A DNA stretch of 47,859 nucleotides, taken from positions 1-47,859 of the IMG/VR virus record IMGVR_UViG_3300035204_001848, one strand, 5' to 3'. The notes beneath the pieces are model-generated. The model saw nothing but the letters and a program-made list of their open reading frames with translations, made no database searches and was not told the origin of the DNA. Position 1 is the stretch's first letter, and every line of letters begins with the position of its first letter. Shown here one piece after another: positions 738-19,159 of the stretch. The stretch comes from a virus. The position numbers were made by a program, and so were the translations under genes.

Positions 738-1001
738 TTATAGTGTCCCTGAGCTTGGTAAATTATTAAATCTGTGTTGTAATTCTTTCCTTTTATTTTC
801 AATAATCCAATGATAAAGGGTGCTGCTACCATTCCCATAATCATAAGGTAACGGACGATAATCCTTTGTTTGTATTTCAGGAGGACTACCCCAATTAGTC
901 GGGAACGGTTTACCGTTAGGGCTATAATAAATGGTTGGCTCACACGTTGGGCAACAACACCCAACTAAATAAAATGACATTAATATCAGTAAAATCTTCA
1001 T
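738..1001 (-). CDS. Small outer-envelope lipoprotein
   Basis: The 87-residue product begins MKILLILMSFYLVGCCC, a short signal peptide with a lipobox (LVGC), so it should be cut before the first Cys and lipid-anchored. The mature part is Pro/Tyr-rich with no domain I recognise. An upstream in-frame extension to about 1031 exists, but the ATG at 1001 gives the proper signal peptide and overlaps the previous stop as ATGA. It could be an outer-membrane spanin-like subunit or an envelope decoration. No paired inner-membrane spanin is evident beside it, so lysis is only one possibility. Confidence 0.7.
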   Translation of the reverse strand: MKILLILMSFYLVGCCCPTCEPTIYYSPNGKPFPTNWGSPPEIQTKDYRPLPYDYGNGSSTLYHWIIENKRKELQHRFNNLPSSGTL

Positions 1002-1495
1002 ACTTTCAACAGTGCTCTTAACTGTTTCCAAGTATCACCCAAGTCCTCATCTGTGTCAACTATATAATCTGGATTACCAACCTCAAAGTCTTCCACATGA
1101 TATTCTTTCCTTAGTTCTCTGGAAGACTTTAATAAAACTTCAAACACTTGATTTTTATTATTATTTTTTAATTCTTGCCTGAGATGATCGTAAGGGTTAA
1201 CGAGAGATAATACTACATGGGTCTCTTGATTTATGGGGTGGCTTTTCCAGCCATTTATTACGTCAACATAAATGGCCTTCCATTCTCCCACCTCTCCCTT
1301 CTTATTTAGGTAAGTCGCTACGGCATTTGCGTTTCTAATGTTTTCTTCTCGTCCCGCCCTACCATAGTTTTTATTAGTGAACATTTCTCTAAACTCATCT
1401 CCATCAATGATGAATGGTGTATCGAGATAGTCCGCTAACATTTTACCCAACGTAGTCTTTCCTGCTCCGGGCTGACCATATAATACATAAATCAT
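998..1495 (-). CDS. cysC: APS-kinase-like P-loop kinase
   Basis: The 165-residue protein has a Walker A loop GQPGAGKT (residues 7-14), then DGDEFR (31-36) and an R-E-E-N-I-R-N segment (about 49-55). These follow the order seen in adenylylsulfate kinases, which phosphorylate APS at the 3' position to make PAPS. A late VGNPDYIVDTD segment also fits. Length is slightly below bacterial CysC (about 200). PAPS is the donor for sulfotransferases, and this window encodes one at 17020-17982, so the two may cooperate. A related small-molecule or nucleotide kinase cannot be excluded. GGGGAAAA precedes the ATG. Confidence 0.72.
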   Translation of the reverse strand: MIYVLYGQPGAGKTTLGKMLADYLDTPFIIDGDEFREMFTNKNYGRAGREENIRNANAVATYLNKKGEVGEWKAIYVDVINGWKSHPINQETHVVLSLVNPYDHLRQELKNNNKNQVFEVLLKSSRELRKEYHVEDFEVGNPDYIVDTDEDLGDTWKQLRALLKV

Positions 1496-1517: not shown

Positions 1518-1592
1518 TTAATTTTTCTTCTTCTTTTTCACCTTTTTGGGCTTCTTCTTCTCTCTTCTTGGTTTCGCTTTATCTCTTCCCAT
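1518..1592 (-). CDS. Very basic 24-residue peptide
   Basis: An ATG at 1592 preceded by AGGAG encodes 24 residues, more than half Lys or Arg (it begins MGRDKAKPRREKKK), and ends at TAA. The good ribosome site and the tight fit between two genes support it as a real small gene. A nucleic-acid-binding or virion-packaged peptide is possible. Nothing more can be said from sequence. Confidence 0.5.
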   Translation of the reverse strand: MGRDKAKPRREKKKPKKVKKKKKN

Positions 1593-1594
1593 AA

Positions 1595-2200
1595 TTATTC
1601 TCCTAATGGATTTACTAGATTTGCTGGTAGTTCATTAATGTCAATTATCATACCGTTCTTGTCTGTTGTGAAACGAAAAGCAGTCTTCTCTTGAGCAGTG
1701 GCCTGAAATTCTTTTTCTCTCACAATTACTTCTTTAAAGGGCTTTATTTTGATTAATTTAATAGTCCCTTTAACTGGCTCTTCATCTCTTTTCGCATAAA
1801 CATGCACCGTCACTATATTCTCACCTTCAGTAATTCCTCTAAATGAGACGACTTCTTCGTGAAATTTTACTATTACGCCCTGCTGTTCTTTGGGTAAAAA
1901 ATTATTACGTATACCGAGCGCATCATGGTCCAAACTAATTAAGCTGCCTTCCCCGCCTTCTCTATTGTTAAAAGATACTACGTGTCCAGATGCCGCCTGA
2001 ACATATAAATCTAAATCATCTTCACTCTCACCGTCCCAAGTCAAAACAACTTCATAAAGTACATTGGGCGGACGAGACTTAATTTTTTCTTCCTCGGTCT
2101 TTAATAGAAAAAGAATTGCCACCAACATAAGTAAACAACAAAAGAGCACATCGATAAATGGCCTAAATGAAAAAAACTTTTTGTATCCTTTGTTGATCAT
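1595..2200 (-). CDS. ExbD/TolR-like motor subunit with DUF2135-like domain
   Basis: The 201-residue protein has one N-terminal membrane helix (about residues 14-34) containing PFIDVLF. Its Asp17 matches the proton-carrying Asp of ExbD, TolR and MotB-type subunits. Beyond the membrane, residues about 48-140 form a predicted beta-sandwich with DDLDLYV and a Gly/Asp-rich loop, similar in pattern to DUF2135 (YfaP-like) domains. This is unlike the short periplasmic domain of ExbD or the OmpA domain of MotB. Its gene overlaps the ExbB-like gene by ATGA, which implies equal, coupled synthesis. Together they would make an inner-membrane complex that uses the proton gradient to move or pull on something in the periplasm. 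The target is unknown. Confidence 0.75.
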   Translation of the reverse strand: MINKGYKKFFSFRPFIDVLFCCLLMLVAILFLLKTEEEKIKSRPPNVLYEVVLTWDGESEDDLDLYVQAASGHVVSFNNREGGEGSLISLDHDALGIRNNFLPKEQQGVIVKFHEEVVSFRGITEGENIVTVHVYAKRDEEPVKGTIKLIKIKPFKEVIVREKEFQATAQEKTAFRFTTDKNGMIIDINELPANLVNPLGE

Positions 2201-2688
2201 TCTTCTAATTTAAATCTTAAAATCATTAGTTGTGCCTGTAGTGGCAAGCTAAATACAATACCACAAATAGTTGTATAAAAAGCCGTATTAAGCCCCGTCT
2301 TAAGTCCAGAGACGATATCACTAACTTCTGTCCCTTCGTTGAGGCTAGTAGAAGTCGCTACGCATAAACCAAAAACCGTACCCAATAAACCAAGCGAAAA
2401 AAAGTGTTCCGCAGCAAACCAGCCCATCTCCGCCTTCTGGGTAAGACGCGCAGAATCATTTTCTACTTTATTTGTGTCCACCTCGTCAGCCAAATAACAT
2501 AATCTACCAACCATGGCTGAAATTAAAACATACAAAAACATGATAACAACACTTAAATGACTAACATCATTCTTTATCATTAGGGAGATAGCGCCCTTGG
2601 TTTCTGCAAAGAAAATGCCTGTAAGCATTACCGCGTTGAGTAAAAACCACTTAGTAAAAGTGGTTCTGTTGATAATTTTAGTAATCAT
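2197..2688 (-). CDS. ExbB/TolQ/MotA-like proton channel subunit
   Basis: The 163-residue protein has four hydrophobic stretches, at about residues 13-33, 44-66, 92-110 and 134-154. The third and fourth carry the family signature: LGLLGTVFGL followed by LNTAFYTTICGIVFSLP, including the Thr/small-residue face that lines the proton path in ExbB and TolQ. It is shorter than ExbB (about 240) and lacks most of the cytoplasmic loop. Translationally coupled to the ExbD-like gene downstream. With that partner it should form a stator-like motor. Neither gene lies next to a TonB, Tol or flagellar gene, so the driven machine is not one of the standard ones. Confidence 0.75.
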   Translation of the reverse strand: MITKIINRTTFTKWFLLNAVMLTGIFFAETKGAISLMIKNDVSHLSVVIMFLYVLISAMVGRLCYLADEVDTNKVENDSARLTQKAEMGWFAAEHFFSLGLLGTVFGLCVATSTSLNEGTEVSDIVSGLKTGLNTAFYTTICGIVFSLPLQAQLMILRFKLEE

Positions 2689-2890
2689 TGAATATCCTAG
2701 TCTTTGTGAATGTGTTATCTTTCTCTAAAATATATACAGTTTCGCCTTCTGTACAGTTTTTTGTTGACTTTATCTCATATTCACCATCTTTATTTAGCGT
2801 CCCAACTGTATCAACTATTTCTCGAAGATACTCTAATCTTATAGTTCTGAGGTTATTATTAGACCCCTCCGTTTTCGCTGGTTGTGTCAT
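2678..2890 (-). CDS. Unknown small protein
   Basis: Seventy residues from the ATG at 2890 (MTQPAKTEGS). A longer frame to 2953 exists but overlaps the upstream gene deeply. The product is polar, mixed in charge, and its C-terminal half looks like a small beta-rich domain (EGETVYILEKDNTF). It ends inside the start of the ExbB-like gene, so it is translated together with the motor pair and could be an accessory part. I recognise no family. Confidence 0.5.
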   Translation of the reverse strand: MTQPAKTEGSNNNLRTIRLEYLREIVDTVGTLNKDGEYEIKSTKNCTEGETVYILEKDNTFTKTRIFNDY

Positions 2891-3104
2891 GTTCGTCTTC
2901 CCAAGCTTTCCAATTGAACTCGCTCTCTGGCGAATCATCTTCGATTTCCTCATCTAAAAAATCCAATTCCCTAATTTCTACCGAATATTCGTATCCTTCG
3001 ATATTAGTATGAAACTCTTTAGCGTACTTCTCTGCGTTAGATTTTTCTCTAAAAAATCCGACACCATGCCCCCTGTGAAGAACTTGATAAAATTTATCGC
3101 TCAT
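2859..3104 (-). CDS. Unknown acidic protein
   Basis: The 81-residue product begins MSDKFYQVLHRG. Its N-terminal half (YAKEFHTN and similar) may fold as a small alpha/beta domain, and the C-terminal third is strongly acidic (DEEIEDDSPESE). No membrane segment or motif is visible. It overlaps its neighbours on both sides by a few bases, consistent with a compact phage operon. Confidence 0.6.
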   Translation of the reverse strand: MSDKFYQVLHRGHGVGFFREKSNAEKYAKEFHTNIEGYEYSVEIRELDFLDEEIEDDSPESEFNWKAWEDEHDTTSENGGV

Positions 3105-3292
3105 TGATTCATATACTCACTTTCTGGGCAGTCCGTCCTAGGCCTACAGGCCACTTCCATATCTTTACGTCTTTGTTCGCAAATGTTCCATTGTTTTTGA
3201 GCATGTCTAGACCTATACTCCTTAAGTTCCACGGGCAGCACCCCTTTGGTGAAAACATACCAACAGAGTTTTGCTCTAGTCCATAAGCTCAT
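3101..3292 (-). CDS. Unknown small basic protein
   Basis: Sixty-three residues from the ATG at 3292, which overlaps the proline dehydrogenase stop as ATGA. The longer frame to 3358 would run far into the dehydrogenase gene. The product is rich in Lys, Arg and Trp near the N-terminus, has three Cys, and ends TDCPESEYMNQ. No family recognised. Confidence 0.5.
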   Translation of the reverse strand: MSLWTRAKLCWYVFTKGVLPVELKEYRSRHAQKQWNICEQRRKDMEVACRPRTDCPESEYMNQ

Positions 3293-4143
3293 TTTGTCTT
3301 TGTTAATCCAACCCATTCTTTTACTATGTTTTTTATAACAAATTTTAAATTCTTCCATTCTCTCAGCCTCCTAACGGTATAGGGCAACCAATTTTTTCCG
3401 AATGGTATATAGATTCTAACCGAATACCCCTTGTGAAGCAAGTTTTTTTGTAAGTCTCTACGAATTCCATAAAGAAATTCATAATCAAAATATTTGGGAT
3501 TAGGTATTATTTCTGTAATATCCTCTATTAATTCCTCGTCATGCGTAGCTATCGCTGGTTTATTTGCTTTATGAGATTTTAATCTAGCAGCATAATCAAA
3601 GAAAGACATTTCTATTGCGATACGGCTTTGCTCCGCGATGTCTTCGTTCTCTTTATATGCTCCTTTTACCAATCTAATAGAGATGTTCTTTTTTATTAAT
3701 GAATTAATATCTTTATTCGTCCTATGTAGATTAGCTTGTAGGGCTATGCCAACATTCTTACAATCTTTATTTACCTCCAAACATACATCTATAGTCCGCG
3801 CGGTCAATTTCGAATCCTCCATGTCAAGCCGTATAGTATGCCCATACTTATCGGCTTCTTTTGCTATGCTCGTGAGAAATGCTATGCATAAATCTTGATC
3901 AATAAGAAGTCCAATTTGCGTCGGTTTAATCGAGATGTCAATCTTGTCATGTTTATAATATTCAATAATATCAAAATATTGCTGCGCAGCCTCTACTGCT
4001 TCTTCTACGCTCCTGATCGATTCCCCAACATAATCTATAGATACTTTATACCCTTGTTTCATCAGCCCATCAATCACTAACTTAGCTGAATTAAAATCAT
4101 GTCCAGCTATGAACCTCTTGGCTAATGGAGATAATAACTTCAT
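3289..4143 (-). CDS. putA: Proline dehydrogenase (FAD enzyme)
   Basis: The 284-residue protein matches the PRODH barrel from end to end: SIDYVGES (35-42), KPTQIG (73-78), RLDMED (105-110), QANLHRT (136-142), RLVKGAY (157-163), ATHDEE (199-204), FLYGIRRD (223-230), RIYIPFGKNW (243-252), and the substrate-binding RRLRE near 258-262. PRODH oxidises proline to pyrroline-5-carboxylate using FAD and passes the electrons to quinone at the membrane. No P5C dehydrogenase or DNA-binding domain is present, so this is the single-function form, close to its usual length of about 300. It starts inside a TAATG junction with a tiny membrane-protein gene. A phage copy could feed the host respiratory chain from proline. 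The symbol is borrowed from the bifunctional bacterial enzyme; prodh would be equally suitable. Confidence 0.9.
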   Translation of the reverse strand: MKLLSPLAKRFIAGHDFNSAKLVIDGLMKQGYKVSIDYVGESIRSVEEAVEAAQQYFDIIEYYKHDKIDISIKPTQIGLLIDQDLCIAFLTSIAKEADKYGHTIRLDMEDSKLTARTIDVCLEVNKDCKNVGIALQANLHRTNKDINSLIKKNISIRLVKGAYKENEDIAEQSRIAIEMSFFDYAARLKSHKANKPAIATHDEELIEDITEIIPNPKYFDYEFLYGIRRDLQKNLLHKGYSVRIYIPFGKNWLPYTVRRLREWKNLKFVIKNIVKEWVGLTKTK

Positions 4144-4227: not shown

Positions 4228-4875
4228 CTACCTCCTTGCGCAGAGAATAAACCAGTCTCCATACCCCTGTTCTCTAAGATCTGAAGCAACTATGGGTGTG
4301 GCGTTATGCCATAGGATTCTATCATTCAACATAATCATTTCTCCATCTTCGAGAGAGCGCGTTAAAAACGGCTTTGATGCTTTACCGTCGTAAGCCATTA
4401 GGCTCCCACCACCTATGTTATGCCTTGCTATCGCAACCATTGCTATATGATCGTATCCGTCTTGATGTACCCCTTCTGGTGAGACCGGCGCTGTACCTCC
4501 TTCCAAGGTAGCTACGCGCATTTGATGAACTTCCACCTCTTGTCCATCTATTAAATCATTTTCCTGCTTAAACGTAAGACAAATTTCCTTAAAACCCTCA
4601 CTTTGTAAAACTTCATTCTCTATGTCCTCAAAGGCCCTAATCATTCCCCCTTGATGCTCGTTAAGATCTTCGCTTTGCAGGAAATCTCTATGCTCTAAAC
4701 GGTCTATCTCTATCTCTTCTTTAGCGTTCCAAAAGCTCGTTCTCAATTCGATGGCTGAATACCTTCGTAATCTGTAGGCCCCATCCTTATGATCTGTATG
4801 CGGTAATCCGTTAAACGATCCCTTAAGGCCATTAATTAATTCTTTATTTAGTTGATTTAGTTGTAGTAATTTCAT
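4228..4875 (-). CDS. 2OG-Fe(II) oxygenase of the amino-acid hydroxylase family
   Basis: The 215-residue protein has the iron ligands as GVHQDG (His137, Asp139) and a distal His190 in ILWHNATP, with LEDGEMIMLND before it. The pattern fits PF10014, which includes the bacterial isoleucine 4-hydroxylase and related free-amino-acid hydroxylases. It would use 2-oxoglutarate, O2 and Fe(II) to hydroxylate a small substrate, probably a free amino acid, in the cytoplasm. It sits next to proline dehydrogenase, so both may act on amino acids. The substrate cannot be read from the sequence. Confidence 0.78.
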   Translation of the reverse strand: MKLLQLNQLNKELINGLKGSFNGLPHTDHKDGAYRLRRYSAIELRTSFWNAKEEIEIDRLEHRDFLQSEDLNEHQGGMIRAFEDIENEVLQSEGFKEICLTFKQENDLIDGQEVEVHQMRVATLEGGTAPVSPEGVHQDGYDHIAMVAIARHNIGGGSLMAYDGKASKPFLTRSLEDGEMIMLNDRILWHNATPIVASDLREQGYGDWFILCARR

Positions 4876-18214: not shown

Positions 18215-19159
18215 TTATTCCTTCCTTTCTAAAATAATAAGTTTGGGAACCTTAGGTATCACCCTTAACATAAACGGAAACATTTTCTCCGCCGCAGGGT
18301 CGTCATCAACATTTTCTTTATCCTTTTTCTCTCTTGGCTCGTGTTCGATAGGCAATTTCAAAAGCTCTTCTTCCGAAGGCATCTGAACGGATCTATCTAA
18401 GGCCCACATAATTTTGTGCTTCTCGCAGTATTCGGCCATCCTGCGCACGGGCACGATAAGGTTAAATCCCTCTCCCGCTCCTCTCACGAGCATCCCTACA
18501 TATCTAGCGTCAGATTTTAAATACACTCCACCCCCAGAACTCCCGGGAAATGCTGTGCAGGTCGTCTGGTCAAACACGTGTTTATTTAACGACTTAATTA
18601 GTCTGCCGCATTGAGAATAAATTCCATCTGTCATACTGTTTGCTCCCATTTGACCGAGAAGGGAGCCGACATGTAAAAGATCCTCTCCCAGCGGAGGAAT
18701 TTTTTTATCAAGATAAAACGTAACGGTATCAGTAACAAAATTTAATTTCCTTACTCTCAATAATGCTAAGTCATGACCATCGGTCGCGTCACTGTACTTT
18801 AAAACTTCCGCGTCCATTTGCAATCTGCCGACAGTTCTTCCATTTTGCCTAATCTCTTTTACTACCATCGGATCTTTGAACTCAACGATAGTCTTGGGCT
18901 TGCCGTCTACCAGAGTCGTTCTGGTTTTCCTTAAGTTATCTATAACATGCGCGGCGGTCCATACTAAGTTTACTAATTTACCGTCTTTATCTTTTCGAGT
19001 GAAAATTACACCCGACCCTTCTCCCGCAGAGAACTGCCCTTCTGATCTAATTGTCACTGATACGTTCTGAAGATGATCCGCTGTTGATGATTTTTTCTCC
19101 GCCCCAAACGATGATACAGCAAGGGAGAGACCGACGATAAAACACGTTAGAGTTTTCAT
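18215..19159 (-). CDS. Exported trypsin-like serine protease
   Basis: The 314-residue protein starts with a signal peptide (MKTLTCFIVGLSLAVSSFGA). The catalytic triad is visible as TAAHV (His71), DGHDLALLRV (Asp130) and FPGSSGGGVY (Ser208), in the order of the S1/HtrA-type family. There is no PDZ domain; the C-terminal 60 residues are charged (EPREKKDKENVDDDPAAE) and end in a hydrophobic stretch. It would act in the periplasm or outside the cell on an unknown protein. It may process secreted or virion proteins, or protect against host factors. A good promoter lies just upstream. Confidence 0.85.
   Translation of the reverse strand: MKTLTCFIVGLSLAVSSFGAEKKSSTADHLQNVSVTIRSEGQFSAGEGSGVIFTRKDKDGKLVNLVWTAAHVIDNLRKTRTTLVDGKPKTIVEFKDPMVVKEIRQNGRTVGRLQMDAEVLKYSDATDGHDLALLRVRKLNFVTDTVTFYLDKKIPPLGEDLLHVGSLLGQMGANSMTDGIYSQCGRLIKSLNKHVFDQTTCTAFPGSSGGGVYLKSDARYVGMLVRGAGEGFNLIVPVRRMAEYCEKHKIMWALDRSVQMPSEEELLKLPIEHEPREKKDKENVDDDPAAEKMFPFMLRVIPKVPKLIILERKE

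Follow-up and report, generated by a model that had tools for sequence, protein, structure and literature searches.

The window (the whole stretch of DNA that was analysed, a 47,859-base IMG/VR virus record) encodes two adjacent proteins that we judge reasonably likely to be the ring and the axle of a 5:2-type ion-driven inner-membrane motor, which would normally also include a third protein, here called C, and of which the phage would carry a trimmed copy, the motor itself being uncharacterised. Such a phage machine probably draws on the ion gradient across the inner membrane to set in motion a component that lies beyond this membrane. Judged from their sequences, the same predicted motor genes occur in many phages that are not related to one another; where a host has been assigned, it is mostly of Rhizobium type.

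The gene pair and its surroundings

The observation of an ExbB/ExbD pair in the window is confirmed far above chance. The two minus-strand genes overlap as ATGA just as the original prediction had it, and the three motifs that it had read from them (PFIDVLF in the ExbD-like, LGLLGTVFGL and FYTTICGIVF in the ExbB-like protein) are all found in the translations. The features referred to below are:

2197..2688, minus strand: ring subunit of the ExbB/TolQ/MotA family, 163 aa, intact open reading frame (Pfam, PDB profile, AF2, Foldseek)
2377..2379, minus strand: codon of Thr104, equivalent to E. coli ExbB Thr148 by hhalign (LLGTVFGL / LFGTVWGI)
2269..2271, minus strand: codon of Thr140, equivalent to E. 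coli ExbB Thr181 by hhalign (FYTTICGI / LLATAIGL)
2197..2200, minus strand: ATGA overlap (-4), in which the ExbB stop is coupled to the ExbD start
1595..2200, minus strand: ExbD-like axle subunit, 201 aa, intact open reading frame (TM helix at residues 13-41, then a beta-rich head)
2150..2152, minus strand: codon of Asp17, the pore aspartate, equivalent to E. coli ExbD Asp25 (PFIDV aligned by hhalign)
1625..2071, minus strand: DUF2135-like beta head, about residues 44-192 (hhalign)

The -4 overlap recurs in many relatives, cultured Rhizobium phages among them. The three small genes upstream of the pair (2678-3358) had been proposed as further parts of the machine, a proposal that does not hold up, as their homologues occur in just 3-4 of 30 near relatives and mostly far from the pair. 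A P-loop kinase similar to APS kinase or zeta toxin (998-1495, minus strand), which in near relatives often follows soon after ExbD, was likewise considered as a motor part and set aside as a clade-specific neighbour, being found in 21 of 30 near relatives and in none of the distant clades. Between ExbD and this kinase, reading by eye gave a tiny Lys/Arg-rich open reading frame (1518-1592, minus strand; MGRDKAKPRREKKKPKKVKKKKN).

Other genes of the window, all on the minus strand, include a class I-type cytochrome c with a signal-like N-terminus (69-458; Pfam Cytochrom_C 26.9 bits, over the cut-off), copies of which, 92-96% identical, lie near the motor pair at loci L001 and L007 only. A proline dehydrogenase (3289-4143; E 2e-30) adjoins a 2OG-Fe dioxygenase (4228-4875; E 2e-48), and the two may form a phage-encoded pair for amino-acid catabolism. 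Further away are a sigma-70-type factor with regions 2, 3 and 4, which is unusual in a phage (6755-7567), and a trypsin-like secreted protease (18215-19159; Trypsin_2 E 5e-12). A related trypsin-like protease was also weighed as a fourth part of the module and rejected, since it lies immediately or almost immediately upstream of ExbB in 16-3-type phages and prophages but is missing there in most others.

The ring subunit

Membership of the 2197-2688 protein in the MotA/TolQ/ExbB family is well supported by profile and structure comparisons. Specifically, it scores 27.8 bits against Pfam PF01618 (MotA_ExbB), above the cut-off of 22.9, and three Rhizobium-phage ExbBs pass the same cut-off independently (23.0, 26.2 and 26.8 bits). 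When a profile of 11 diverse ExbB relatives was searched against PDB sequences, 20 of the 21 matches were MotA, ZorA, TolQ, ExbB or proteins with a MotA/TolQ/ExbB domain, the best sequence-profile match being MotA. The AF2 model of the window ExbB (pLDDT 87) has four predicted helices (residues 9-30, 45-69, 76-115 and 122-162), and the large cytoplasmic loop is absent from the protein; all 50 Foldseek matches listed for this model belong to the TolQ/ExbB/MotA/ZorA/PomA superfamily, with probabilities up to 0.96 and E-values of 0.06 or worse. Across the 52 loci described below, T104 is conserved in 98%, T140 in 96% and Q153 in 100%. PHROG gave no convincing match for either window protein (best E 0.26 for ExbB, 0.024 for ExbD).

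The axle subunit and its head

In the Ton motor, protons are proposed to be carried by a highly conserved aspartate of the axle helix (PMC9022066). The equivalent D17 is kept in 51 of 52 loci and is invariant in the 29 phage sequences of the ExbD tree, and 51 of the 52 ExbD-like proteins have a single TM helix. With the MotA_ExbB cut-off passed and the pairing of the two genes constant, the reading as an ExbB/ExbD-type pair with a pore aspartate stands. The original prediction had made this depend on an ExbB/ExbD-type fold and a conserved aspartate; the ExbB fold and the aspartate hold, and the head is found without the classical ExbD periplasmic fold. Direct matching to PF02472 (ExbD/TolR) remains below threshold, with 12.9 bits for the window ExbD (cut-off 25.4) over the TM region only, and weak matches, again in the TM region, in six of 11 ExbD-like family members (best E 0.008).

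The head was modelled by AF2 as all-beta (pLDDT 75 overall, below 50 for residues 81-97), and a Foldseek search with this model of moderate confidence returned no significant PDB match and no ExbD/TolR among the matches listed. A direct Pfam search for PF09906 (DUF2135) gave no match at E up to 10 in any of the 11 ExbD-like members. When the alignment of the 52 phage-type heads was compared by hhalign with genuine DUF2135 proteins fetched from genomes, a probability of 97.8 was obtained (E 1e-12, 75 columns), versus 1.5 or lower for all controls (eight column-shuffled and one reversed alignment, and those of ExbB and C), so that the label 'DUF2135-like' proves to be right. Seven head residues (W55, D62, D64, L90, D93, G96 and E116) show no variation across 29 phage and 45 bacterial sequences, and the head may possibly contain a putative Ca2+-type metal site. 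The head had also been put forward as a phage novelty, which is contradicted by the presence of the same ExbB-ExbD-C operon in bacterial chromosomes. Weak matches in Ackermannviridae and Vequintavirinae (residues 37-149) were discarded, as the protein concerned has 672-673 aa and only a head-like domain in common with ExbD.

Relatives in phages

A search for the pair in other phages, which had been suggested at the outset, gave 51 further loci with the pair in all of them. Specifically, scans of IMG/VR found 26 further contigs with 48-84% identity to the window ExbD and 20 more distant ones; these 46 contigs, the window itself, four Rhizobium phages and one MAG contig make up the 52 loci. In all of them ExbB and ExbD co-occur, with ExbB upstream and mostly within a few bases, and pairwise ExbD identity falls as low as 19%. 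Sensitive queries brought up 27 records of cultured relatives, all of them phages of Rhizobium or Sinorhizobium, about 60-171 kb in size and of several kinds, in which the genes are annotated as hypothetical or left unnamed. No trio (ExbB, ExbD and C) is annotated around the matched gene in phages Atu_ph07, Phosso and CRP-7, where tblastn gave no match; a scan with the I1_18 protein returned no matches, and a plasmid search no ExbB match.

One of the cultured carriers is the classical temperate phage 16-3, in which p038 corresponds to ExbB (E 4e-8), p040 to ExbD (E 1e-25) and p042 to C (E 2e-6), the order of the trio being kept with small genes in between. These proteins and their homologues in RHph_N34, N3_13, I1_18, RL2RES and P10VF are members of the same trio as that of the window, the ExbDs being 23-30% identical to the window ExbD. 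The map of AP-16-3, a close relative of 16-3, defines late, silent and early regions, and the paper describing it cites a 'genetically silent' chromosomal arm (PMC10460002). The 16-3 trio lies between the tail-fibre/immX genes and attP/int, which by position on the AP-16-3 map would place it in the silent (S) region and suggests that it is dispensable in the laboratory. This location would suit superinfection exclusion or lysogenic conversion, whereby the motor alters the inner membrane or the wall and blocks DNA delivery by a second phage, as would the trios found in prophages of host chromosomes (L215 and L217) and the occurrence of the trio in phages that share one host group without being related. 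An exclusion phenotype is not known, however, and bacteria also carry the motor as a regular chromosomal operon beside metabolic genes, which leaves exclusion a rather unlikely explanation.

The surroundings of the trio differ with lifestyle. In lytic phages it lies amid DNA-metabolism genes (DNA polymerase, RNR, gp46/47-type, endonuclease I), in temperate phages beside tail-fibre/lysis or att/int segments, and in the prophages L215, L216 and L217 near tail-fibre, lysozyme or GH19 genes. In L216 (8396-9584), 7 bp separate the C gene from the gene of a GH19-type lytic enzyme downstream, and in a 328-kb virus contig and its relatives a phage DnaK-like protein is encoded just upstream of the trio (L084:2416-4308). 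The adjacency of C and GH19 in L216, the position of the L217 trio downstream of a phage lysozyme, and, in RHph_TM3_3_14B, the lysozyme and endopeptidase some 3 kb ahead of the trio would fit an aid to lysis, either as a PMF-driven device that, late in infection, disrupts the wall or the outer membrane, or as a regulated ion leak that times lysis. Yet the trios of lytic phages sit among genes of DNA metabolism and not of lysis, and in bacteria the trio is a stable chromosomal operon; a lysis function is therefore considered improbable.

The third partner, C

Clustering of the neighbourhoods revealed a third family, C (144-230 aa), in 39 of 52 loci, with two predicted TMs in 36 of these 39 proteins. 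A profile search added C at L002 and L053, a similar 145-aa open reading frame was seen by eye at the C position of L104, and the loci without C have less than 5 kb of sequence downstream. In distant clades C usually abuts ExbD, and in most members of the window clade it is shifted 0.5-5.5 kb downstream. No C is present in the window sequence, which ends 1,594 bp past ExbD, so that given the distances in its clade the C gene of the window phage is expected to lie off the contig. The charge bias of C (K+R 2.0 in the TM1-TM2 loop versus 0.2 at the N-terminus) leads to the prediction that both of its ends lie outside the cytoplasm, with a periplasmic C-terminal tail. Homology of C to TolA or TonB was considered and rejected (hhalign probability against TolA 0.6), and a PDB search with C gave no convincing match. 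C is little conserved, and single-protein scans of viral contigs with it returned only the relatives of each query.

A chromosomal operon and its statistical link to PQQ

A pattern scan of genome contigs, which gave one match, had hinted at a 'phage-only' module. This was overturned by a profile built from 29 phage ExbDs, with full-length matches in 44 of 397 sampled Hyphomicrobiales genomes (about 11%; E down to 1e-62), 16 strong matches in 398 genomes of the phylum and 31 of 274 genomes of another class. Chromosomal ExbB-ExbD-C is complete in 19 of 20 flanks, and among 45 short loci ExbB is present in all 45 and C in 44. The chromosomal operon of Pseudomonadota (L186-L204 and L206-L214) has the same three genes, order and signature residues as the phage trio (W14, D41, T104 and T140 of ExbB and W55, D62, D64, D93 and E116 of ExbD are common to both), but unlike the phage version it has a cytoplasmic stretch of ~83 residues and a longer C-terminus, and it lies near kinase/phosphatase or PQQ genes.

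Bradyrhizobium-like loci (the genus is inferred) are syntenic, with genes for a phosphoesterase-like protein and a Ser/Thr kinase downstream of the trio; in L190 and others of these loci, a divergent histidine kinase/response regulator lies alongside the trio. In 16 chromosomal ExbDs of Bradyrhizobium type, valine takes the position of Asp17 (FDPLGVMLFK) and an aspartate is found four residues earlier, which indicates that the site of the pore aspartate can move or be lost. Other chromosomal trios adjoin a Sel1/TPR-type protein, Pqq genes, a PQQ-type dehydrogenase-like protein or the SoxYZ-like quinoprotein carrier TIGR04557; among these neighbour labels only TIGR04557 and PqqB are model-based, several others coming from reading of the sequence. 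PqqB is present in 33 of 44 trio-bearing versus 12 of 60 trio-less Hyphomicrobiales (Fisher p 3e-8, without phylogenetic correction), and it lies within 30 kb of the trio in eight genomes, where about 0.7 would be expected. Taken at the sequence level, the chromosomal trio is an uncharacterised bacterial operon for a predicted motor, statistically tied to PQQ-dependent oxidation.

Such an association could mean that the phage copy is an auxiliary energiser, sustaining periplasmic uptake or the delivery of metals or cofactors during infection, with quinoprotein alcohol oxidation as the link to the host. The PqqB statistics, the chromosomal neighbours (PQQ-type dehydrogenase-like genes and the TIGR04557 carrier) and the cytochrome c, proline dehydrogenase and 2OG oxygenase of the window phage are in line with this. 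The PQQ association is uncorrected for phylogeny, however, and absent in several trio genomes, and the known phage trios do not adjoin PQQ genes; the energiser role is accordingly regarded as unlikely, somewhat more so than exclusion.

Age and trimming of the phage copies

In the unrooted ExbD tree, the 43 ordinary chromosomal ExbDs group together as a single clade (98/89) amid deep branches of phage sequences, and the label phage or bacterium changes twice on the tree versus 23 times in shuffles. This pattern implies that the phage copies are old and were not acquired recently from the hosts sampled. The median cytoplasmic stretch of ExbB is 27 residues in phages versus 83 in bacteria (about 56 aa lost in phages), and 12 versus 35 residues follow Q153. 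Loss of the loop suggests that the phage version is no longer subject to cytoplasmic control by the host. Somewhat short of an even chance is given to the fuller proposal that phages carry a stripped-down copy, with the cytoplasmic loop and the C-terminus lost, which escapes that control and, in infected cells or lysogens, drives or adjusts some function of the envelope.

Comparison with known motors

The 5:2 motors known so far are Mot, Pom, Laf, Agl, Zor, Sii, Tol and Exb (listed in PMC12204202). The predicted window-type motor resembles ExbB-ExbD-TonB and TolQ-TolR-TolA in its ring with LGT..G and T..G channel helices, its one-helix axle with the pore aspartate in a P-F-I-D-V type motif, the adjacency of the genes, and a third inner-membrane protein (here C) encoded next. 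It differs from them in that the phage ring is predicted to have four helices and is nearly devoid of a cytoplasmic domain, the axle head is DUF2135-like and not of the ExbD/TolR fold, and C has two TMs and no detectable relation to TolA. With MotA-MotB it shares a ring protein of four predicted membrane helices, MotA being also the best PDB profile match, but it is without the cytoplasmic torque domain of MotA, a plug or an OmpA-like peptidoglycan-binding head.

ZorA is among the closest matches of the phage ExbB in PDB, PADLOC and NCBIfam, its channel domain recurring in both profile and fold comparisons, which raises the question of a Zorya-like anti-phage motor carried against competitor phages. 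These matches span only the shared channel domain, though, and are far below the cut-offs. The phage ExbB has 163 aa and ends about 12 residues past Q153, the trio has neither the long cytoplasmic tail of ZorA nor a ZorB-type, peptidoglycan-binding head, effector genes (ZorC/D/E) are missing from the neighbourhood, and PADLOC gave no match for ExbD or C. Membership in Zorya is thus rejected, and a Zorya-like function is held to be very improbable.

Proposed mechanism and significance

For the preferred reading as a trimmed 5:2 motor, the ExbB ring and the ExbD axle would assemble as a 5:2 complex in the inner membrane; ions would pass Asp17 and turn or displace the axle; and the DUF2135-like heads would move, with C relaying the movement to a target in the periplasm or the cell wall. 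Functions such as a block to phage entry or a role in DNA exit, which the original prediction had raised, gained no support. The original prediction knew of no well-described phage system like this pair, and in the open-access literature searched neither a phage-borne 5:2 motor nor a description of the ExbB-ExbD-C trio was found.

It is about an even call whether ExbB-ExbD/DUF2135-C constitutes a new class of motor, chromosomal in Pseudomonadota and trimmed in unrelated phages, by which a virus-supplied rotary motor re-energises or seals the host envelope during infection. In 16-3, a tractable temperate phage, the trio lies in a region that looks dispensable, which makes the question directly testable. 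Known 5:2 motors are cellular, and a motor module conserved across many phages would give viruses a new means of drawing on the ion gradient of the host.
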